DNA from: Synechococcus sp. RCC307
GTDB lineage: Bacteria > Cyanobacteriota > Cyanobacteriia > PCC-6307 > Cyanobiaceae
Reading direction: 5' to 3'
Assembly (NCBI GenBank): GCA_000063525.1
Contig: CT978603.1
Span: 1,483,105-1,547,104, forward strand
Length of the DNA: 64,000 nt
Positions 6,748 to 29,651 of this stretch are shown here, piece by piece. The notes under the pieces are model-generated. The model did no database searches and was not told the DNA's origin. It saw only the letters and a list, made by a program, of their open reading frames with translations. Position 1 is the first letter of the stretch, and every line of letters starts with the position of its first letter. The position numbers and the translations under genes were made by a program.

Positions 6748-7788
6748 TCAGTCTTCCGCCCAGATGTAGCGGGTGAGCTCACTGGCATCCGGCTCGGGAG
6801 CCGCCAGGGCGAACTCAACGGCTTCGCGCACTTCGGCATCGATCTCTTTATCGATCGCCTCCATCTCTTCAGCGCTCAGCAGGCCGCGGGCATGCATGGT
6901 GGCCTGGAAGCCCTTGATCGGATCGCGCTCAGCCCAGAAGGCTTTCTCCTCGGGATCGCGCAACTCATCGGGGTCCGCCAGGGAATGACCGCGGAAGCGG
7001 TAGGTCATGCACTCCAACAGGGTGGGACCTTCACCGGCGCGGGCGCGGGCCACAGCGCGCTGGGCGGCATCACGCACCGCCAACACATCCATGCCATCAA
7101 CTTCTTCGCCATGCATGCCGAAGCCAGCTGCTTTGCGCCAGATCTCGGTGTCACTGGTGGCGCGCTCGTGGGCCATGCCGATGGCCCACTTGTTGTTCTC
7201 CACCACAAAAAGGATGGGCAGCTTCCACAGCTGCGCCATGTTCAAGCATTCATAGAACTGGCCGATGTTGCAGGTGCCATCGCCAAAAAATGCGGCGGTC
7301 ACGGCATTGCTGGAGCTATCGCCGAGGGCATCGCGCTTGTAGCGGCTGGTGAAGGCTGCACCCAACGCCACAGGAATGCCTTCCCCGATGAAGGCATAAC
7401 CACCGAGCAGATGGTGCTCTTTGGAGAACAGGTGCATCGAGCCACCACGGCCCTTGGAGCAACCGGTTTCCTTACCGAACAGCTCACTCATCACCTCGCG
7501 GGCGGGCACGCCAGCGCTGAGGGCATGCACGTGGTCGCGGTAGGTGCTGCAGAACCAGTCGTGCTGGGTCTTCATGGCCTTGATCACGCCACTGGAGACC
7601 GCTTCCTGCCCGTTGTAGAGGTGCACGAAGCCAAACATCTTGCCGCGGTAGTACATCTCCGCGCACTTGTCCTCAAACCTTCGCCCCAGGACCATGTCCC
7701 GGTAGATGGTGAGGGCCTCCTCTCGGGTCAGATCGGGGCACGCCTGCGCAGTGGCAAAGCTGGCGGCGGCGGCGGTCTCCGTGGTCAT
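6748..7788 (-). CDS. pdhA: Pyruvate dehydrogenase E1 component, alpha subunit
   Basis: 346 residues. Thiamine-diphosphate subunit of the pyruvate dehydrogenase complex, making acetyl-CoA with PdhB, E2 and E3 encoded elsewhere. The ThDP motif runs from [12 protein letters not shown] to VVENN. The [20 protein letters not shown] stretch and the phosphoregulatory-loop region [15 protein letters not shown] are typical of E1-alpha. ATG at 7788 ([10 protein letters not shown]) is chosen because the upstream extension to 7938 is low-complexity and overlaps the start of the divergent ftn2 gene. It ends 3 bases from the convergent deacetylase gene. Confidence 0.96.
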
Positions 7789-20315: not shown

Positions 20316-20326
20316 GCAGTAAAAAA

Positions 20327-20470
20327 CGCGCCATCGATGGCCTCACCTGGGTGATCAGCTGGCAGGAACTTGTGGATCAGGGTCTGCCCTGTCCTGGAAT
20401 CCATCGCATCCTTTTGCCAATTCATGAACCCTCGGATCTGGCTGAACAGCAATGGCGCCAGGCCTTAATC
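20327..20470 (+). pseudogene. Remnant of an ATP-grasp protein C-terminal module
   Basis: Immediately after era, frame 2 reads GLTWVISWQELVDQGLPC followed by PGIHRILLPIHEPSDLAEQQ. This matches the C-terminal end of the ATP-grasp protein at 26.0-27.9 kb (HLKVLLSWQEFLDQGLPC). Only about 50 codons of similarity are present and there is no plausible start, so it looks like the tail of a deleted paralogue. A small intact gene for a free-standing module is the alternative. Confidence 0.5.
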
Positions 20471-20522
20471 CGCGAACAAGGGGGCGATTCCGCGCCGTTT
20501 CTGAGGCCAGCAGGTATTAGCT

Positions 20523-21302
20523 TTATTGGTTTTCATCCATCAAGTTCTTCTCCATTCCAGCAATGATAATCATCTTGCGCTGACCTTGTGAAGCTTGCAC
20601 GGTTGGAACGCCATGCCAGGCCTCAGCCGTTCGGGGCAAAACAAAAGCGCGATTGGAAACAAAATCAATCGTTTTGACTTCAAAAAAATTAGACCAACCT
20701 TGTGGTTTTCCGTTTTTTGGGAATCGATCTTGGTCTTGGGGATTCTTTGGGACGTAGAGTCGAGTTCCGCATGCATTAAGCCCTTGATGCTCTGGCAGAT
20801 AGGCCAAGATTGTAAAAACTCTGCTTGGTGGGTCGAGATGAGGGCCAATACTGTAACCATCGCTATCACGAATCAATACCGTTGTGAGATGCACTGATGG
20901 GTGCCGATCCTTTTCTTTGGCTAAATGTGCTGGAATGATGGCATCGAGTAGTTGGCTGCTAAAAGCAGGATTATTGAGATGGTGCTGAAATGTGTCCCAG
21001 AATTCAGCTGCAGGTTGCTGGAATGATGCTATGTGACTTTTCCCCAATGCATTGTCACTCAGTGGTGCACACAATCGATAAATGTAATCCTTGTTCTGGC
21101 CTGGATAAGGCTTCATCATCTCTGGGGTCGGGAAATATTCATGGATGACTGCCAGAGACGCAGGATCAAAGCAATCATCAATCACTCCGTGGGGTGCCGG
21201 CTGTTGGTAGCGAACCTGCCCACTTGTGCATGAACGCAATAAAGAGTCTGCAGCTTTGATGCCAAGGTCTTGATCTGTCATGGCTGGGTCAATGAGGGGC
21301 AT
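20523..21302 (-). CDS. 2-oxoglutarate/Fe(II)-dependent oxygenase-like protein
   Basis: 259 residues from ATG 21302 (MPLIDPAMTDQDLG), chosen because GAGGA lies 8 bases upstream and the longer ORF would overlap the previous gene. The double-stranded beta-helix signature is visible: H155-x-D157 in SIGPHLDPPSRVF, a distal His230 in EAWHGVPTV and Arg242 (QRKMIII) for 2OG. Relatives hydroxylate peptides, small molecules or nucleotides; the substrate is unknown. The gene is clearly AT-richer than era. It is downstream of, and 10 bases from, the TPR gene on the same strand, so probably an operon. Confidence 0.7.
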   Translation of the reverse strand: MPLIDPAMTDQDLGIKAADSLLRSCTSGQVRYQQPAPHGVIDDCFDPASLAVIHEYFPTPEMMKPYPGQNKDYIYRLCAPLSDNALGKSHIASFQQPAAEFWDTFQHHLNNPAFSSQLLDAIIPAHLAKEKDRHPSVHLTTVLIRDSDGYSIGPHLDPPSRVFTILAYLPEHQGLNACGTRLYVPKNPQDQDRFPKNGKPQGWSNFFEVKTIDFVSNRAFVLPRTAEAWHGVPTVQASQGQRKMIIIAGMEKNLMDENQ

Positions 21303-21312
21303 GAAATTTTCC

Positions 21313-22692
21313 TCATTCAATGCCAGATGTCTCGGGTGGGCATGGGCTGGCTTGTTTGTTTTCCATGATTTCAACTTGTGCTAAAAAATTGGCGTTGGCA
21401 GGGCTTAAACTTGGCTGCGGATACCCGGTCAGTGGGTCACCCATGGCGTTTGCGTAGGCGATCCAGTTTTTGATAATAAGCCATTCACCGAGATTAAACG
21501 CAGAGGCGGATTTGTTGATCGGCATGGAATCCTTTTGATTGAAAAATTGGACTTCCTTGTTTGCCCACTCTTCGCGTTGCCTTGGCCCTTCCTGAAGACT
21601 TGTGGATGTATTGATTGCTCCGTAATCGGGGTATTCTTTTCGGAAGGATGTGCATCCTCGATTGATTGAAACCTCGGGGGAAAGAGCTGTCCTTTTCCGG
21701 CATTCTAAAATTACATTTTTGGCAACGTGCGCGGCTTCCTTCACGTCTGAGCAGTAAATTAATCCCTTGTAAAAATTGTTTTGGTCTGGCCGTAATTCAA
21801 TCATGCACTTGCTTGTATTACTATCTTTGAGATGCATCGTTTTCATGAAAAAATGAAGCATCAGCAGCTCGTCTAGGCTTTTAACGTTAAGTTGAATTTT
21901 GTAGCAGCTGTGGCATCGCTTGGCGATCGCTTGATGAGCAAGAAAGAATTTGCTGAGGGCGGAGCAGTTTGGAGCTTCGGATTGTTGAACATAATAGATC
22001 TGGGTCAGGCTTGTATTGATCTGCTGACCAAGTGAGGCTGTAATGATGAAGGCTTTTTGGATGAATTGCTGAATCTCAGCTGCGCTAATTGTGCTGTTGT
22101 TGGCTCCAGGCAATTGAAGCTTTCTGAGTTCTACGTCGACACTCTCGATCGGGTGGATTGCCTTTGAATTGATTGTGTTTCTTTGTTGCTGAAGTGTGAG
22201 TGTTAAAAGATCACAGGCTTTAGTTGTATCGGCAGCATTGGATTTAATTGATTCAAGTGCACAGGCCAGTGCTTGATCGAGATTGCCAAATTTGCGGTAG
22301 AGGTGGCCAAGCTCGATCGTTGCGTCGATATTGTGAGGATCAATTTTCAGGGCCTGGTGATTTGATTGAAGCGCCTCACGGAAGTTGCCAAGCTCCCTGT
22401 GAATCAATCCTTGGATCCAGTAAGAGTTGGTGTCATTTGGATCCAGCAAAATAGCTTGAGATATTGAAGAGAGCGCCTGGTTAAGGTGGCCGCAATCTCT
22501 ACAGCTGGAGGCAAAGCTTTTGTGTGCTTCTGCGCTCTTGGGATTGCTTTTGATGGCTTCGAGGGCGGTTGCCAGCGCCTGGGCTAGTTGCGTTGATGCC
22601 AGTTTGGGCCTCTCAGACGCTGCTACATATTTTATGGGATGTCTGGAATTATTCGATAAAGTGTTGGGGTTTTGCTCGCCGATGGAATGCAA
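21313..22692 (-). CDS. TPR protein with a C-terminal domain of unknown function
   Basis: About 459 residues. Residues about 45-150 are three TPR units (YWIQGLIHRELGNFREALQS, ELGHLYRKFGNLDQALACAL). The C-terminal 300 residues have no recognised family, carry several Cys and end near FNLGEWLIIKNWIAYANAMG. The only in-frame start is TTG at 22692, which overlaps the first codons of the divergent sulfotransferase gene and has no ribosome binding site, so the 5' end may be truncated or misplaced. Low GC marks it as part of the island. Pairing with the 2OG oxygenase suggests a scaffold or substrate-binding role (inference). Confidence 0.65.
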   Translation of the reverse strand: MHSIGEQNPNTLSNNSRHPIKYVAASERPKLASTQLAQALATALEAIKSNPKSAEAHKSFASSCRDCGHLNQALSSISQAILLDPNDTNSYWIQGLIHRELGNFREALQSNHQALKIDPHNIDATIELGHLYRKFGNLDQALACALESIKSNAADTTKACDLLTLTLQQQRNTINSKAIHPIESVDVELRKLQLPGANNSTISAAEIQQFIQKAFIITASLGQQINTSLTQIYYVQQSEAPNCSALSKFFLAHQAIAKRCHSCYKIQLNVKSLDELLMLHFFMKTMHLKDSNTSKCMIELRPDQNNFYKGLIYCSDVKEAAHVAKNVILECRKRTALSPEVSINRGCTSFRKEYPDYGAINTSTSLQEGPRQREEWANKEVQFFNQKDSMPINKSASAFNLGEWLIIKNWIAYANAMGDPLTGYPQPSLSPANANFLAQVEIMENKQASPCPPETSGIE

Positions 22693-24195
22693 AAAAATGC
22701 GCCAACGCCGGCAACCTCTCCAGCTTTAGCCGAAGCTCTGCAGCGGGTGAGCCAGCACCCTGGTGATCACAAGGCCTACCAGCAACTCAGTGCGGCCTAT
22801 GCCAAGGAGCATCAGGCCGATCTTGCTCTGGCGGCGGCCCTGCAAGCCATTGCGCTAGAGCCCAAAGTTCCCGAGCCTTACTTGCAAGCTGCAGCGGTGT
22901 ATCGCGATTGGAATCAAACCCAACGAAGCAAGGAGATTCTGCTGCGCTGCATTGAGCATTGCCCCAGCAGCCATGACGCCCACTTGCTGCTGGCGACTAA
23001 CTATCGCGCCTTGCGTGAACTTGATCGGTTTGAAGAGGCGATTCAGCGCTGCCTTGCGCTTCAACCCGGCTCGCCAGGAGCATTGATTGAGCTGGCGTCA
23101 CTGGAGCGCAACAAGGGCAACCGGCAACGCTGCAAAGAGCTTTTAGGTCAGGCTTTGGCTGCTGATGATGAGAAGATCGTCGCTGTATTAGGCCAAGCTG
23201 CCGATCTTCAGAGTGATCAAGAGGCGATCGACATTCTTGATTCCATTGATCGACTGATCAGCAGATTACCGGATCGCAGACAGCATGAAACGTTGAATTT
23301 TGCCCGATTTGAATGTCTGCATCGGCTGGGTGATGTTGCGCAAGCAGCCGCTGCCCTGCAGCAGGCCAATCAGGCCAAGCTCCAGCGGTTGCCCTCCAAC
23401 AAAATCGCCATGCTGGAGCGCATCCACGCTGGTGCAACAACCCCCAGCGGCGTGGCGCCACAGGCCTCCGCCCACAGCCAGCCTGTGTTCATCGTTGGCA
23501 TGCCGCGCAGTGGCTCCACCCTGCTGGCCTCAATCTTGAGCATGAAGGAGGGCAGCGTCGATTTGGGTGAACCCGGCGCGATGGGCCAGGCCATTGCCCA
23601 GCTCAACCACCAAGCCAGCGGCACATTGGATGGCCTGTATCGCGCTCGCCTCGATGAACTCCCTCTGCTGAACAAGCCAAGCCAAGCCGCTATCACGATC
23701 GATAAATCGCTCTACAACTTCATTCACTGCAATGTGATCCTTGATCTGATCCCCAACGCCAAAGTGATCCACAGCCGGCGCAATCCTCTCGACAACATTC
23801 TCTCGATGTTGCGGGCGCGGATGGTTTCACCACAAAACTATTGCTCCGATGTTGTTGATGCTGCTGAAGTGATCATTGCTCAGGAGCAGGCAATGCTTGG
23901 CTTCAAGGAACGCTACGGCGAAAGGATCTTCACCAACAACTACGAGCAACTCACCCAAACCCCTGAACACCACATCCGCACACTGCTCTCATGGCTGGGC
24001 TGGCCCTGGGATGAGCGCTACTTGAACCACCACCGCAAAGATCGCTTGATTTTCAATGCCAGCGCCATACAGGCCCGCAACCCCATCAACAGTCGCTCTG
24101 TTCAGGGCTGGCGCCGCTATGCCGATCTGCTGGAACCAGCCCGGCAGTGCTTGATCAGCAGCGGGCTGTTTGATTCAGCTGACCTAACGGCTTAA
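22687..24195 (+). CDS. TPR-repeat sulfotransferase
   Basis: 502 residues. The N-terminal 240 residues are TPR repeats (AYQQLSAAYAKEHQADLAL, LLLATNYRALRELDRFEEAI). The C-terminal sulfotransferase domain has the PAPS 5'-phosphosulfate loop GMPRSGSTLLAS near residue 274 and the 3'-phosphate motif VIHSRRNPLDNILS near 364. It transfers sulfate from PAPS to a peptide, glycan or small molecule. TPR-sulfotransferases of this layout are frequent in marine bacteria with unknown acceptors. ATG at 22687 is preferred to the upstream TTG. Its last 50 codons recur as a fragment at 25.5 kb. Confidence 0.85.
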   Translation: MQKNAPTPATSPALAEALQRVSQHPGDHKAYQQLSAAYAKEHQADLALAAALQAIALEPKVPEPYLQAAAVYRDWNQTQRSKEILLRCIEHCPSSHDAHLLLATNYRALRELDRFEEAIQRCLALQPGSPGALIELASLERNKGNRQRCKELLGQALAADDEKIVAVLGQAADLQSDQEAIDILDSIDRLISRLPDRRQHETLNFARFECLHRLGDVAQAAAALQQANQAKLQRLPSNKIAMLERIHAGATTPSGVAPQASAHSQPVFIVGMPRSGSTLLASILSMKEGSVDLGEPGAMGQAIAQLNHQASGTLDGLYRARLDELPLLNKPSQAAITIDKSLYNFIHCNVILDLIPNAKVIHSRRNPLDNILSMLRARMVSPQNYCSDVVDAAEVIIAQEQAMLGFKERYGERIFTNNYEQLTQTPEHHIRTLLSWLGWPWDERYLNHHRKDRLIFNASAIQARNPINSRSVQGWRRYADLLEPARQCLISSGLFDSADLTA

Positions 24196-24234
24196 ACGGG
24201 GCGTGGACTTGTGTTCAGCTCTTCAATCTGGGCA

Positions 24235-25440
24235 TCAGGCTGACTGCAGCAGATCGCTGCGCGTGCCCAGGTCATTGCCGATTGCGATCCAATGATCCAG
24301 GCAGCCCTGGCGTAGCTGGGCGGCCCCATCACCTCCCACGCCCTCCAGTTGCAGCAGCAGCCCCATCAGGGCCATGGTGTTGCCCTGGTGAATCTGATCG
24401 AACAGCTCATTTGCCCGCAGACCCGGCACTACTGCACATGCCCTGGAGAACAGGGTGCGAGGCAGACCGGGCTCTCGCCTCAGACCCAGCAGCGGCTGGA
24501 CCACCACCAGCTTGTCGTCCTGGCGTTCAATCGTGCAGGGCTTGGTCAGACCGTCGCTCCGCCCCCCCCCTTGCACCACCACCTGCTGGCCGTTGTGCTG
24601 AAGGCAGAGGTTGAGGCTGAACCCCGAAGGTTCCTGGCAGTTGAAGCCGTAGCCGAGCAGGCGGTGCAACGGATCGCTGACGGAGTAGTTCACCAGAATT
24701 TCGTCGGCATGGACGCCGCCGACGGCGATGCCATCGCCACCTTGGTTAAAGCCCTTGGCAGCCGGCGCATGGTTCACCAGTTCGATGACCGGCATCAAGA
24801 CTTTGTTGCCTTTGTGGTTGATGAAGCGGGTCTTCAGAAAGCGCTGAAAGATTTCCTGTTCGCGGTTCTCGCCGGGAAAGCGATTGTCGAGGTTGTAAAG
24901 GCCCAGACGCTTGAGGTCCTGGTGAACGGCATCAGGTAGCGCCTTCAAGCCTTCTTCAAAGGCTTCGATCGAACGGCAGCCGTCCAAGCCCCAGGAGTGG
25001 TTGGCCTGATACTGCATGAACCAATCGGCATAGCCGGGGGGAAAGGCGCTGGGATCCTTGATCACCACCGCCCCCTCCTGCAGTCGTACGGCGTCGATCG
25101 GCACCAGCAGTGCATCGGGAACCCGCAGCTTCACCGTTTTGCCAGGGTCGATCGGAAACAGCCCCATGCCGAAGGGACCCTCGCGCTGCATCACGTTCTC
25201 GGCGATGCCGCCGAAGCCACGAAACGCCTCTAGCAGTTCCTGCCACATAGCCGACGGTGCAATCGTTCCTACACAGAACGCGATGTACTTTTCCACCCAT
25301 TCATTGCCCTGTTCATGCCGCCGGTGCAAACCGTCATTGACCCCAACAAGCAAGAGCGGATTGCAGTTCAAAATGCCGCAACTGAATGCCTGATGCAGAA
25401 CGGTGTTGCCGGTGATGCTCCATCCGCTCAACGCCTTCAC
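24235..25440 (-). CDS. SET-domain-like protein (putative protein methyltransferase)
   Basis: About 400 residues. The C-terminal half carries the SET-like pattern of the Rubisco LSMT/SETD3 branch: MPVIELVNHAPAAKGFN (the NH motif) and then HADEILVNYSVSDPLHRLLG before GYGF. Such enzymes methylate Lys or His side chains with SAM. The N-terminal SET half is not clear and catalytic competence is unproven. The start is uncertain: GTG 25440 is drawn. An ORF to 25536 is open but its first 20 codons are antisense to the duplicated sulfotransferase tail, so they are unlikely to be native. Confidence 0.6.
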   Translation of the reverse strand: MKALSGWSITGNTVLHQAFSCGILNCNPLLLVGVNDGLHRRHEQGNEWVEKYIAFCVGTIAPSAMWQELLEAFRGFGGIAENVMQREGPFGMGLFPIDPGKTVKLRVPDALLVPIDAVRLQEGAVVIKDPSAFPPGYADWFMQYQANHSWGLDGCRSIEAFEEGLKALPDAVHQDLKRLGLYNLDNRFPGENREQEIFQRFLKTRFINHKGNKVLMPVIELVNHAPAAKGFNQGGDGIAVGGVHADEILVNYSVSDPLHRLLGYGFNCQEPSGFSLNLCLQHNGQQVVVQGGGRSDGLTKPCTIERQDDKLVVVQPLLGLRREPGLPRTLFSRACAVVPGLRANELFDQIHQGNTMALMGLLLQLEGVGGDGAAQLRQGCLDHWIAIGNDLGTRSDLLQSA

Positions 25441-25492
25441 AGGTGATGGACGCGGAGCTTTGAGGAGGGCCCTACCAACACAGCAAAAATCA

Positions 25493-25642
25493 TTGATTTT
25501 TAATGCCAGCGCCGTACAGGCCCGCAGCCCCATCAACCGGCGTTCTGTTCAGGGCTGGCGCCGTACTGCCGATGTGCTGGAACCAGCCCGGAAATGCTTG
25601 ATCAGAAGCGGACTGTTTGATTCAACTGCCTTAACGGTGTGA
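25493..25642 (+). pseudogene. Duplicated 3' end of the TPR-sulfotransferase gene
   Basis: Encodes LIFNASAVQARSPINRRSVQ and on to GLFDSTALTV, nearly the same as the last 50 residues of the sulfotransferase (LIFNASAIQARNPINSRSVQ to GLFDSADLTA). Nucleotide similarity also continues a little beyond both ends, from about 25478 into the first 20 bases after the stop. No sulfotransferase core precedes it; the SET-like gene occupies that place. It is therefore a decayed second copy. Confidence 0.8.
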
Positions 25643-25662
25643 ACAGGCCTGAGGGCTTGTGC

Positions 25663-25836
25663 TTAGAAATCGATCTTGGTTTCCCCGCCGCCGCCGCCTT
25701 TGCCGGTGTCGGTGTTGGGGTCGGTGTTGGGCCCAGCCAGCTCCAGCGATGCCTGCTGTTGGCGGCGGAATTCAGCCACCTGCTCGAGCACCGCAGCATC
25801 CACCTCGAAGGGCAGTTGGGTCGAGGTGGTCTCCAT
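25663..25836 (-). CDS. Small acidic/Gly-rich peptide, possible modified-peptide precursor
   Basis: 57 residues from ATG 25836 (METTSTQLPFEVDAAVLEQV). In-frame TTG starts at 25854 and 25944 could lengthen it to 93. The N-terminal part is a predicted amphipathic helix (EQVAEFRRQQQASLEL). It is followed by a repeated PNTDPNTDT, a GKGGGGG run and the terminal ETKIDF. The layout of helical leader, Gly-rich spacer and short Thr/Asp-containing end resembles ribosomal peptide precursors. It lies between the sulfotransferase remnant and the divergent ATP-grasp ligase. No family is recognised and the role is inferred from context only. Confidence 0.5.
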   Translation of the reverse strand: METTSTQLPFEVDAAVLEQVAEFRRQQQASLELAGPNTDPNTDTGKGGGGGETKIDF

Positions 25837-26009
25837 CTTGATGGCTGGTGCCAAATCTTTGTCGAGATTAATAGAAGTGTTTGACCTGTCAAGAATTCCC
25901 TTGCAGGGTGATGGTCTTGCCGTCCTCGCTGTCTCACTCGACAATGCCGCCGGCAGCGCTGCGGAAGCTGCCCATGAATCGGGGTTGACCTTGTGCGCTG
26001 GCGGGATTG

Positions 26010-27854
26010 ATGGGTTCCAAACACTGGCAGCAGCGCTCCTTGCGCATGGTTTCAGGCCCTTGCCTTGATGAGCCAGATGCCGTGCGTCATCCGGAGTTGC
26101 TGTTAAAGCCCGCGGCAGCGATCACAACCCTGGACTCGGCGGAGCTGCAGCAGCGGTTGCAACAGGCTCAAACCCTGAAAAATTTGCCGGCCTTCGGGCC
26201 ACAGCGTGTGCTGGGGGGCAAAGAGGCCGCCATTTTTGAAGCCGCTGAGCCTCGGGGGCTGTATTGCGCGCTTTGGTGTGGGGTGTGGGCCTCCACTGCG
26301 CTGGGTCTTGGCTACCCCGCCATCAATCCCGATCACCAAGGCGTTCGCATGCTCTGCAAAGCCTTCGCGGGTTCACCGGTGTATCTCGAGCTGATGGCAA
26401 CGGCTCTCAATCTGGCGGCCGATCTACTCGAGGCCTGCATCGAGGAACCACACTCTGTGGCCACCCGCCTCCAGCCCCGCGTGCAGGCAATCCGGGAACT
26501 TGCCTCAATCAGGAGGGGGCATGGGTTCTCGAATGCATTGATTCGGGCGGCAACCCAACGGGGCATTCCCTGCTTCCCGCTTCTACTGGAGCCAGGCTCA
26601 AACTCTCCGCTGTTGCAGTTCGGCATTGGCGCGGCATCGCGGCTGGTTCGTTCATCGGAAACCGATGCCGACTCTTCCATCGGCGCACGCATTGCCGGGT
26701 GCAAGCCGATCACATCCCAATGGCTTCAGCAACTGGGGCTGCCAACTCCCAAAACCGTGATGCTGCCGCTGCAGAGCAGTGTGTTTCAGCTTCTCGAGGC
26801 AGCAGAAAACGTGGGCTGGCCCTGCGTGGTGAAGCCCGATGCCGCAGAGAGGGGCTACGGCGTCACGGTGAACATCACAACGCCCGAGGCATTGGTGGCG
26901 GCCACGGCTCAAGCGGTTCCCTTGGCCCAGCGCGAGGTGCAGGTGCAGGCCCACTGCCCAGGCGCCTATGTGCGCCTGGTGGTGATCAACCACAGCCTGG
27001 TGCGGGCCTTGCGCAGCGAGCCGCCGTTTGTGGTGGGGGATGGGGCCGCCAGCATCATCGCCTTGATTGAGGCCAGAGCAGAAAACTGGAGCAAGCCTGA
27101 CCCGATCACAAGGGAGCATTTGTATGAGCAGCCACAAGCCAACCCAGAGATCGAGCAGCATCTCGCGCAGGCCGGGTTGACGTTGCAATCGGTGCCGGAG
27201 GCCGGCCAACGCGTGGTTTTATCCAGCGAGCTGGTGGACCGCATGAATTGGGTCTACAGCGACTGGCTCGATCTGGTGCATCCCAGCGTGCAGTGGATGG
27301 CGGAATCCATCAGCCACTCGATGGCCATGCCGAACGCAGGCATTGATGTGATCACCACCGACCTCGCCGCTCCCTTGCATGAGGGCAAAACGCAGGTGAT
27401 TGAAGTCAACTCCAACCAAACGCTGCAACGGCCGCAAGCCAAGTCATTCATCGAAGCACTCTTCCCTTCAGCAGCCTCCGCTTGGATTCCGGTTGAGGTG
27501 ATCGTTTGCCTCTCGGCTACCGATGCCGCCGCTCACCTCGATGCTGATCCGGTGGTGCAAGGAGGCGTGGTGGGCATTAGTCCTGCTCTGCAGGAAGCCG
27601 ATAGCCGCTTGTTGGCGACGCCACTGGAGGGATGCATGCTGGTGGGTTACTGCCACCCCGATCAGCTGCTGCATAACCGCTCGATCCGCCACCTGAAAGT
27701 TCTGCTGAGCTGGCAAGAGTTCCTGGATCAGGGCTTGCCCTGTGAGCGGGTGAGCCGGGTGGTCTTGGTTGGCGAGCTGCCCGGCGCTGAGGCTGAGCGC
27801 TGGAGCACATTCGTCAACGAACTGGAAAGGTTGGGGCGCCTGAAGAGGGGTTAA
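26010..27854 (+). CDS. ATP-grasp ligase resembling the cyanophycin synthetase N-terminal half
   Basis: About 614 residues. Residues 1-200 resemble the CphA N-terminal domain. The ATP-grasp domain follows: SSIGARIAGCKPITSQWLQQ, WPCVVKPDAAERGYGVTVNI, VVINHSLVRALR, VGDGAASIIALI and the metal-binding E-x-N of VIEVNSNQTLQ near 465. The Mur-ligase-like half of CphA is absent. Instead there is a C-terminal module of about 130 residues (VEVIVCLSATDAA ... LSWQEFLDQGLPCERV). The enzyme should form amide or ester bonds using ATP; the acceptor may be the adjacent peptide (inference). Several starts are possible (26007 TTG, 26010, 26046). Confidence 0.75.
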   Translation: MGSKHWQQRSLRMVSGPCLDEPDAVRHPELLLKPAAAITTLDSAELQQRLQQAQTLKNLPAFGPQRVLGGKEAAIFEAAEPRGLYCALWCGVWASTALGLGYPAINPDHQGVRMLCKAFAGSPVYLELMATALNLAADLLEACIEEPHSVATRLQPRVQAIRELASIRRGHGFSNALIRAATQRGIPCFPLLLEPGSNSPLLQFGIGAASRLVRSSETDADSSIGARIAGCKPITSQWLQQLGLPTPKTVMLPLQSSVFQLLEAAENVGWPCVVKPDAAERGYGVTVNITTPEALVAATAQAVPLAQREVQVQAHCPGAYVRLVVINHSLVRALRSEPPFVVGDGAASIIALIEARAENWSKPDPITREHLYEQPQANPEIEQHLAQAGLTLQSVPEAGQRVVLSSELVDRMNWVYSDWLDLVHPSVQWMAESISHSMAMPNAGIDVITTDLAAPLHEGKTQVIEVNSNQTLQRPQAKSFIEALFPSAASAWIPVEVIVCLSATDAAAHLDADPVVQGGVVGISPALQEADSRLLATPLEGCMLVGYCHPDQLLHNRSIRHLKVLLSWQEFLDQGLPCERVSRVVLVGELPGAEAERWSTFVNELERLGRLKRG

Positions 27855-27878: not shown

Positions 27879-29651
27879 TTGCTATTGCGTCAGAACTCAG
27901 TAAGTTTTCGCAAGCTGAAGCGCCCACCGGTGAAGTCTCAGTTGTTGCTGCGCACCGGTGGCTTGATCGGCAAGCTGGTTGTTCTCAACGCTCTGGTACT
28001 GCCAGGAGCCTTTATTGGCGAGCAGCTGGTGGGCGGGAATGAAGCGAAGGCGCGAACTGTTGAAGTAGATGGTTACGAATGCACCTGGACACCCAACGCG
28101 AACATATTTCCAGGTGAAGATGCGACTCGTCCGGGATCATGGAGTTGTGTACCGAAGTGGATCTTCGAACAGGAATTCCCTGAAGACCCAGGCAGACCAC
28201 CCAATATCCCACCCTTCGAAGAGATAATCCCGCCAGGTCCGGGAGATGAAGAGATAATCCCGCCAGATCCGGGAGATGAAGAGATAATCCCGCCAGATCC
28301 GGGAGATGAAGAGATAATCCCGCCAGATCCGGGAGATAATTCAAATCGAGTACCTCCTGGTCCTGGCAGCCCCCCACCTGCCGAGGCACGCCGCCGTTGT
28401 GGTGAAGGCCGCTGCCTGGCCATCTTGCGCAGCTTCCGCCCCCCCAACCCGGACAAGGGAACGCAAGCTGTCAGCTTCTACAACCAGGCGCTGATGGAGC
28501 GCTTGCCGCTGCTCACCTACGAAAAAATCACGATTGAGCCGGAGCCCGAACCAGTGATCGAGCCTGCACCGAGCGAACCGGTGCGTGGCCTCTGGAAAAC
28601 CACGCCAGTGGGCGATGAAAAGCTCTACGACTTTGAGCTCGACGGCACCTTCTACAAGGCATCGGATTCAGTCACCTCCTATTACGCCGAACGCGAAAGC
28701 CTGCGGACTTGGGTGAAGGGCTTTGGCGGCAGCACCAGCAACTTCGACCCCGACCGCTGGGGCCATCGCGAATTCAACGCCACCTTTGGTGGTGGTGTTG
28801 TGGGACTCGACTACTCCTTCACCGATAACTTCCAGCTCGGTGGCTATGCCAACTACGGCAAGATCAACACCACCGAATATTCCCCGGTGAATCCAGACTG
28901 GGATCCCAATGGCTGGGGCGGCGGCGTCAAAGCCGTTTACTGGACCGACAATTTCTATGTGCAGGGTGTGCTGGGGCGCACCCAGTGGAATGGCGAGCAG
29001 GTTCGCGATATCCCCGCCAGCGGCCGCTTCGGCTACCTCACCGATGCACAAGTTGCCGCGAGCAGTCGCCCCGATCTAATTGGCGCGCTGCGCACCGTCA
29101 AACCGCAAGCCAGCGGCGATAAAACCCTGAACAGCACCGTGGGAGCCGTGCGGGTGGGCTTGCCGATGCAAGTGGGCAAGTTCTACTTCGAACCGCGCTT
29201 CACCGGCACCTACAGCAACAACCAAGAAGAGGGCTTCACCGAAAGCCGCGGCGCCTTCCCCTTCAACCTGCGCTACGGCGAGCGCACCACCAACTACTGG
29301 TTCACGGATCTGGGCTTCAAGTTGGCCCTGCCGATGCGCACCAAGCAGCGCGGTGCCCTGGTGACACCCAATCTGCTGGTGTCGTGGATGGGGAATTGGG
29401 ATCAGGGCAATCCAGCCCAGCGCTACTACGCCACGTTCAGGAATAGCCAGGGGCAAAAGGGCAGCTACTTCGTGCGCTCCGGGGCTGAGAACGAAAACGC
29501 CCTGGTGCTGGAGGGCGGCCTCGACTACACGGTGAGGAACATCAACGCCACCTCGTTCCTGCTCTATGCCCGCGGCGGGGCGCTGATTTGGGATGACGCC
29601 ACCAAACCCGCCGACTGGCGCGCTTCCGGCGGCTTCACCTTCCAGTTCTGA
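27879..29651 (+). CDS. Outer-membrane beta-barrel protein with repetitive linker
   Basis: 590 residues. A hydrophobic N-terminal segment (GLIGKLVVLNALVLPGAFIG) acts as signal sequence. A Cys-containing short domain and an acidic Pro-rich linker with four copies of EEIIPPDPGD follow. The C-terminal part from about 260 alternates polar and aromatic residues (FTDNFQLGGYANYGKINTTE, VGKFYFEPRFTGTYSNNQEE) and ends in a terminal Phe (GGFTFQF). This is typical of autotransporter-like barrels inserted by BAM. The start is TTG 27879 or GTG 27930; both keep the signal. It borders the island and could be native. Passenger function is unknown. Confidence 0.75.
   Translation: MLLRQNSVSFRKLKRPPVKSQLLLRTGGLIGKLVVLNALVLPGAFIGEQLVGGNEAKARTVEVDGYECTWTPNANIFPGEDATRPGSWSCVPKWIFEQEFPEDPGRPPNIPPFEEIIPPGPGDEEIIPPDPGDEEIIPPDPGDEEIIPPDPGDNSNRVPPGPGSPPPAEARRRCGEGRCLAILRSFRPPNPDKGTQAVSFYNQALMERLPLLTYEKITIEPEPEPVIEPAPSEPVRGLWKTTPVGDEKLYDFELDGTFYKASDSVTSYYAERESLRTWVKGFGGSTSNFDPDRWGHREFNATFGGGVVGLDYSFTDNFQLGGYANYGKINTTEYSPVNPDWDPNGWGGGVKAVYWTDNFYVQGVLGRTQWNGEQVRDIPASGRFGYLTDAQVAASSRPDLIGALRTVKPQASGDKTLNSTVGAVRVGLPMQVGKFYFEPRFTGTYSNNQEEGFTESRGAFPFNLRYGERTTNYWFTDLGFKLALPMRTKQRGALVTPNLLVSWMGNWDQGNPAQRYYATFRNSQGQKGSYFVRSGAENENALVLEGGLDYTVRNINATSFLLYARGGALIWDDATKPADWRASGGFTFQF
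28218..28337 (+). repeat. Four tandem 30-bp repeats encoding EEIIPPDPGD
   Basis: Four head-to-tail 30-base units (28218, 28248, 28278, 28308) that differ by a single base in the first copy (GGT for GAT). They are in frame and near-identical at DNA level, which indicates recent expansion by slippage or unequal crossover. Confidence 0.95.

Follow-up and report, generated by a model that had tools for sequence, protein, structure and literature searches.

A short ATP-grasp ligase of cyanophycin synthetase descent beside a precursor-like peptide gene in Synechococcus sp. RCC307: a possible modifier of a ribosomal peptide

The window analyzed in this study, a stretch of 64,000 nucleotides from the genome of Synechococcus sp. 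RCC307, contains the gene of a short ATP-grasp ligase that derives from cyanophycin synthetase (CphA), together with genes for a small precursor-like peptide and an outer-membrane protein (Table 1). The ligase reading frame is intact and encodes 614 or 615 amino acids, depending on whether the ATG at 26010 or the TTG at 26007 is used as start. The former is favored because residue W6 is invariant in four homologues. The 614-aa frame is real and under purifying selection, with an overall dN/dS of 0.27 in a codon comparison of RCC307 with WH7803.

Table 1. Features of the ligase locus (positions refer to the window).
Feature	Position	Strand	Basis or remark
3' remnant of a second, G003-type ligase gene (VISWQELVDQGLPC-type sequence)	20321..20455	+	
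Segment ~96% identical in DNA to WH7803	20400..26600		Recent exchange; right edge inside the ligase gene
57-aa precursor-like peptide gene METTSTQLPFEVDAAVLEQVAEFRRQQQASLELAGPNTDPNTDTGKGGGGGETKIDF	25663..25836	-	Divergent to ligase; orthologues in WH7803 and G003
Short CphA-derived ATP-grasp ligase	26010..27854	+	614 aa + stop; ORF, profiles, dN/dS, AF2 fold
Ligase N-terminal region, residues 1-165	26010..26504	+	CphA N-domain-like by profile and fold
ATP-grasp (G) domain, residues ~166-490	26505..27479	+	Sequence match to CphA, residue alignment
Decayed, truncated Mur-ligase domain without P-loop, residues 491-614	27480..27851	+	Full-length profile-profile alignment, AF2 fold
LSWQEFLDQGLPC, residues 566-578, counterpart of CphA ARGGILRxGL	27705..27743	+	Alignment to CphA
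Autotransporter beta-domain outer-membrane protein	27879..29651	+	Pfam Autotransporter 2.5e-20; 24 bp after ligase

The orthologue of the ligase in WH7803 (locus L032, genome G268) is 77% identical to the RCC307 protein (genome G000), and homologues at about 32-37% identity were found in G003, a genome of the same genus, and in G284 and G395. A search with the C-terminal part of the ligase matched 6 out of 400 family genomes, G329 with a remnant only. Phage sequences yielded weak partial matches only, and the plasmid search returned annotated CphA-type genes whose matches did not cover the C-terminal part. Neither a CphA1 above the TIGR02068 cut-off nor a match to cyanophycinase (TIGR02069) was found in RCC307, WH7803 or G003. 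Both are present in G036 of the same family.

The central part of the protein is related to CphA at the sequence level. In the NCBIfam profile search residues 130-495 matched PRK14016 (6e-55), and the CphA1 model TIGR02068 was matched with 9e-50 and 169.5 bits; both matches are far under the curated cut-offs, which is 850 bits for TIGR02068. The model of N-acetylglutaminylglutamine synthetase, TIGR03103, covered the ATP-grasp part only (101.4 bits, cut-off 569 bits) and did not reach a full-length match. CphA1 and CphA2 structures in the PDB were also matched by the ATP-grasp part at sequence level. The initial annotation had described both the N-terminal and the ATP-grasp motifs as following CphA. 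This holds for the latter; the N-terminal region resembles the CphA N domain by profile or fold only, its residues 53-123 were modeled by AF2 with low confidence, and the motif Cx19HxxEH is lost. This motif constitutes the N-domain site of CphA1 and is missing in CphA2 (PMC9262961).

The origin of the C-terminal region is less apparent at first sight. It had no Pfam match, the NCBIfam matches end at residue 495, and the profile comparison of this module alone with CphA1 and CphA2, as proposed in the initial annotation, was not significant. In full-length profile-profile alignments the family of the window ligase (hereafter window family) matched CphA1 with a probability of 100 (q10-603 on residues 44-642) and CphA2 with 99.9 (q16-611 on residues 42-632). 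Here, LSWQEFLDQGLPC aligned on ARGGILREGL of CphA, about 68 residues separate the P-loop position from ARGGIL compared to 66 in CphA1, and residues ~491-614 are collinear with the start of the CphA Mur domain. The structure prediction that had likewise been suggested gave a whole-chain match: an AF2 model built from 56 sequences (pLDDT 80 overall, ~90 at residues 490-610) superimposed on residues 1-615 of TeCphA1 with Z 27.0 and an rmsd of 4.1 over 553 residues, and on CphA2 (7TA5) with Z 22.3 over 490 residues, up to the CphA2 end. This match supports the alignment and is not independent of it, because the input included CphA sequences. A model from 5 sequences with CphA left out was poor (pLDDT 44.5); its C-terminal strand and helix order was that of the 56-sequence model. 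Since the comparison of the module alone was not significant, the assignment to Mur relies on position, spacing and fold; by these criteria the C-terminus corresponds to the beginning of the Mur domain in a decayed and truncated state, as it is in CphA2. The P-loop GTNGKT and D585/H586 are gone, and the chain stops before the Mur lid. CphA2 also is without the P-loop and lid of the M domain (PMC9427784). Hence, the earlier statement that the Mur-ligase half needed for cyanophycin is missing was borne out, and the proposal that a new module of about 130 residues had taken its place was rejected. Across this region dN/dS was 0.10-0.30 where computable against WH7803, and thus the C-terminal module is retained by selection.

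In TeCphA1, the C-terminal carboxylate is held in place by R309, the binding site of the incoming Asp is formed by R323, N394 and R458, and S396 lines the Asp pocket (PMC9427784); the mutation H267A inactivates the CphA1 G domain (PMC9262961). We compared these and neighboring positions in 5 members of the window family, 40 full-length sequences and 5 CphA2 sequences. K275, R322, E465 and N467 of the RCC307 ligase are equivalent to K261, R309, E450 and N452 of CphA1, and these equivalents are retained in all five window-family members, so that the residues for ATP, Mg and the activatable carboxylate are still present. The acceptor side differs. R323 is replaced by S/C/L/L/S, N394 by V/E/E/E/P and S396 by R/R/R/R/Q; G398 and G399 are lost (W in four members), P455 is changed to Q in 5/5, and both R458 and the catalytic H267 are replaced. 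The RCC307 protein carries S, V, R, a gap and R at R323, N394, S396, R458 and H267, respectively. R323, N394, S396, G398 and G399 are invariant in 40/40 full-length and 5/5 CphA2 sequences and kept in 0/5 window-family members. Among the full-length sequences R323, N394, S396 and R458 are kept in 40/40 and H267 in 36/40. The RCC307 acceptor loop ELVDRMNW stands where CphA has TANLSTGG and implies a different amine.

In the phylogenetic tree the window family (100/99), which is joined by a short protein of G284 (L089), and CphA2 (100/100) formed separate clades; CphA1 was also separate, and some long branches were flagged. Judging from this separation and from the replaced acceptor residues, the ligase appears not to be a CphA2 orthologue. 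The Mur-type fold that would mark a plain CphA2 orthologue was thus found at the C-terminus, but the orthology itself was not. A divergent CphA2, re-polymerizing beta-Asp-Arg or making a cyanophycin-like polymer, would be of equal length with an equally truncated Mur domain, and would account for the whole-chain fold match (7ta5, Z 22.3) and the profile comparison at 99.9%. However, R323, N394, S396 and G398/G399 are kept in all CphA2 compared and not in the window family, which forms its own clade, and the genome has no CphA1 or cyanophycinase to supply the beta-Asp-Arg dipeptide. We consider this explanation very improbable. The initial suggestion that the enzyme probably joins a different acceptor is upheld by the replacement of the Asp-binding residues and H267, by the retention of R323, N394 and S396 in CphA2, and by a genome without cyanophycin metabolism.

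The locus has a history of recent exchange. Over about 20400 to 26600 most of the DNA shares 90-100% identity with that of WH7803, a member of another marine subcluster; in the remainder of the ligase gene identity falls to about 75%, and the edge lies near residue 200. The GC content of this island is 54.5%, versus 61.8% for the window. With its right edge inside the ligase gene and a ligase remnant at its left, the island was thus exchanged together with ligase sequence on either side. Its genes include one of 2OG-oxygenase-like type, one for a TPR protein and one for a TPR-sulfotransferase; a 433-aa ORF on it had no family match and looks SET-like by eye. A 3' remnant of the TPR-sulfotransferase was found at 25403-25642; this gene and the second ligase both left duplicated 3'-ends, which looks like the outcome of cassette swaps at gene ends. 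A 37-aa ORF, MRKERCCQCLEPINPASAQGQPRFMGSFRSAAGGIVE, on the minus strand at 25934-26047 in antisense to the ligase start, is nearly identical in WH7803. Its conservation says little, since the surrounding DNA is near-identical as well. In G003 the gene order is reversed, with the outer-membrane protein preceding the ligase in a coupled arrangement that is divergent from the peptide gene. A decaying or non-catalytic CphA relative that hitch-hikes on the exchanged island would fit the sparse distribution, and the second-copy remnant at 20321-20455 demonstrates that such genes decay. In view of a frame open over 614 codons, a dN/dS of 0.27 and invariant ATP and Mg residues, this is extremely unlikely.

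The adjacent peptide gene is the most telling part of the RCC307 locus. The 57-aa peptide has no Pfam or NCBIfam family match and consists of a near-invariant leader (QLPFxVDAAVLEQVAEFRRQQQASLELAGP), a variable core and the tail GGGGGExKIDF. A profile of the three peptides matched strongly in exactly G000, G003 and G268 (WH7803) among the 400 family genomes, all of which carry the ligase. Weak matches in other genomes, with E above 1e-4 and mostly in long open frames, were set aside as chance hits due to Gly-rich sequence. The peptide gene adjoins the ligase in RCC307 and WH7803 and the ligase/outer-membrane protein operon in G003, and is always divergent. These three genomes are not independent, because RCC307 and WH7803 share the recently exchanged segment and G003 belongs to the same genus. 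Between RCC307 and G003 the leader is identical over 30 codons (90 nt), compared to about 82% identity of the neighboring genes. As the synonymous sites are also identical, this may reflect DNA exchange rather than selection at the protein level. In the core, all 7 changed codons between RCC307 and WH7803 are replacements, and the G003 core has a 4-codon in-frame deletion with the GGGGGExKIDF tail conserved.

Upstream of the ligase, G284 and G395 encode another conserved small peptide, of the type CLLS[IL]EELxxKxxxQVSIxWNGP. The two copies are 53% identical, and their differences by codon position (7, 3, 15) follow a third-position-rich, coding-type pattern. A search of 340 genomes, the list of which did not include G395, found this peptide only in G284. 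The peptides of the three sub-groups have no demonstrable homology to one another. Thus, one feature of RiPP clusters, a small precursor-like peptide gene tied to an enzyme, is present at the ligase loci, and at the RCC307 locus neither a mod_HExxH gene nor a recognized RiPP modifying enzyme was found. An ATP-grasp enzyme beside a T-, D-, E- and K-rich peptide also recalls the graspetides, whose ligases share the ATP-grasp fold; PsnB appeared in the fold-match list. Such an enzyme would cross-link side chains of core and tail (Thr/Lys with Asp/Glu) by an ester or amide bond internal to the peptide, and no amine would be added. The enzyme appears to be of CphA descent and not of the MdnC/PsnB type, R309, which holds the terminal carboxylate in CphA1, is kept, and inspection of the peptide by eye revealed no repeated core motif of graspetides. 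This kind of cyclization therefore seems improbable.

Further short CphA-like ligases were found in G460, G028 and G284. In G460, the class-wide search revealed one of 595 aa. Ahead of it lie the gene of a peptide beta-hydroxylase of the aKG-HExxH type (TIGR04267, 78.9 bits, cut-off 40) and those of five tandem peptides of 45-52 aa of the type MFNNHKLLGFNALSNQQYNRLVLEKTFAMEVQAKIGNGKSTSPAK. This locus (L122, 1855-5806) has the appearance of a compact RiPP-like cluster of five peptides, mod_HExxH and ligase, and no such cluster was found in the open literature searched. In G028 a mod_HExxH gene (104.1 bits) lies directly downstream of the short ligase in convergent orientation, with two peptides similar to the G460 type, and on contig 152 of G284 mod_HExxH adjoins a frameshift-split ligase with one G460-like peptide. 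The peptides of these sister clusters are of the KLHGF...AKIG type. Thus, at least three genomes, from two families, harbor a short CphA relative within a RiPP-like cluster. In the tree the HExxH-linked ligases form a different sub-clade from the window family; hence, these loci support a peptide ligase by analogy and not by direct orthology. The link is not exclusive either, since the mod_HExxH genes of G072, G034 and G533 have no CphA-like neighbor. At one mod_HExxH-subfamily locus of G072 (L131) a GFK...AKIG-type peptide (MKPALSNLFGFKLMAFESS...SAKIGEPGSP) is encoded at 7021-7266, and no CphA-like ligase was found within 12.5 kb.

Other contexts were also observed. In a 1114-aa protein of G395 (L092, 4633-7974) a short CphA-like ligase is fused to an amino-acid adenylation domain. 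In L041, L088 and L091 picocyanobacterial CphA-like genes adjoin cytochrome P450 genes in genomes without cyanophycinase, and two of these loci also contain a TauD-like dioxygenase. A small-molecule or non-ribosomal ligase would couple a short peptide or a free amino acid with some other amine in a natural-product or surface-modification step, and the small ORF would then be unrelated or regulatory. This reading is in line with the CphA-like genes of G028, G284 and G395 that sit with cytochrome P450 and TauD-like genes or, in one case, are fused to an adenylation domain, and with the TPR-sulfotransferase and 2OG-oxygenase-like genes of the RCC307 island, which are typical of variable islands. 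It leaves aside that peptide gene and ligase go together in three genomes, that a second peptide family accompanies the ligase in two others, and that the peptide core is hypervariable. We regard it as rather unlikely.

The best explanation, to which we give slightly less than an even chance, is that this ligase of CphA descent activates a carboxylate on the adjacent ribosomal peptide, to which it then couples an amino acid or amine, a reading drawn from gene context. The retained G-domain machinery would bind ATP and Mg and hold the carboxylate for phosphorylation. With R322, the R309 equivalent, holding a peptide carboxylate, reaction of this carboxylate with ATP would give an acyl phosphate, which an amine would then attack. 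The activated carboxylate probably is the C-terminus of the 57-aa peptide, the natural substrate candidate from the adjacent gene, and the product would be a modified ribosomal peptide carrying an amino acid or other amine. It might be exported via the adjacent outer-membrane protein. The Arg-adding Mur reaction would be wholly lost, likewise the acceptor pocket for Asp/beta-Asp-Arg, and the decayed Mur domain would be retained as a structural part.

Homology, fold, residue losses, purifying selection, adjacency and co-occurrence of the peptide, and the lack of CphA1 and cyanophycinase are the directly observed basis of this interpretation. In its favor count the catalytic core (equivalents of K261, R309, E450 and N452 kept; dN/dS 0.27), the rebuilt acceptor pocket (R323, N394, S396, G398, G399, P455, R458 and H267), the absence of CphA1 and cyanophycinase from RCC307, WH7803 and G003, the co-occurring peptide with its hypervariable core between conserved flanks, the second peptide family upstream of the ligase in G284 and G395, and the sister ligases beside mod_HExxH and precursor-like peptides in G460, G028 and G284. 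Against it count the RCC307 locus without mod_HExxH, a recognized RiPP enzyme or a peptide family match, the lack of demonstrable homology among the three peptide sub-groups together with the placement of the HExxH-linked ligases in another sub-clade, and the non-independence of the three peptide genomes. To our knowledge, no activity has been described for any window-family member. More generally, and somewhat more tentatively, CphA-type enzymes of picocyanobacteria and other cyanobacteria may have taken on a role as modifiers of ribosomal peptides that elongate or cap the precursor carboxylate by ATP-grasp chemistry, some of them with HExxH beta-hydroxylation. The RCC307 and WH7803 loci would then represent a minimal, HExxH-free form. 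No paper tying cyanophycin-synthetase-like ligases to precursor peptides was found in the open-access literature, the search of which did not extend to subscription journals.

The accepted role of cyanophycin synthetases is the formation of a storage polymer. If a CphA branch acts on encoded peptides, 'cyanophycin synthetase' annotations in picocyanobacteria without cyanophycinase would be mislabeled, and an enzyme that polymerizes peptides without a template would have become a tailoring enzyme of ribosomal peptides. This would provide a usable chemistry, the addition of an amine to a peptide carboxylate without tRNA, and a class of ribosomal-peptide products not described in the open literature searched. 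The ligase loci represent small, testable enzyme-peptide pairs.

Among known systems, CphA1 (PDB 7LG5, 7WAC-7WAF) shares with the ligase the order of N and ATP-grasp domains and the fold up to CphA1 residue 615. In contrast to CphA1, the ligase is missing the Mur lid and C-terminal part, and has lost the P-loop, H267 and the Asp-binding residues. CphA2 (PDB 7TA5, 8FXH/8FXI) is similar in length, in the layout of N, G and truncated Mur domains, in keeping R309, E450 and N452, and in the absence of the Mur P-loop and the N-domain HxxEH motif. The ligase differs from it by the replaced R323, N394, S396, G398 and G399, the separate clade, the adjacent peptide gene and a genome without cyanophycin genes. 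The HExxH-linked short ligases of G460, G028 and G284 have the same short CphA layout, a decayed Mur end with an L-x-GLP motif, N266/H267 positions changed to acidic or other residues, and precursor-like peptides nearby, but they belong to another sub-clade, keep R323 and G398/G399, and are linked to a hydroxylase that is absent from RCC307. PEARL ligases are tRNA-dependent and unrelated in fold to the RCC307 ligase. They are reported to extend a ribosomal peptide by an amino acid at its C-terminus (PMC10979984), and the idea of C-terminal amino-acid addition is what they would share with the RCC307 ligase. Graspetide ligases such as MdnC and PsnB resemble it in the ATP-grasp fold and the small peptide gene nearby, but are about half its size and not of CphA descent; a graspetide survey makes no mention of CphA-like ligases (PMC8939145). 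By sequence as well as by fold the best matches of the ligase are CphA, with PsnB only as a general ATP-grasp match.
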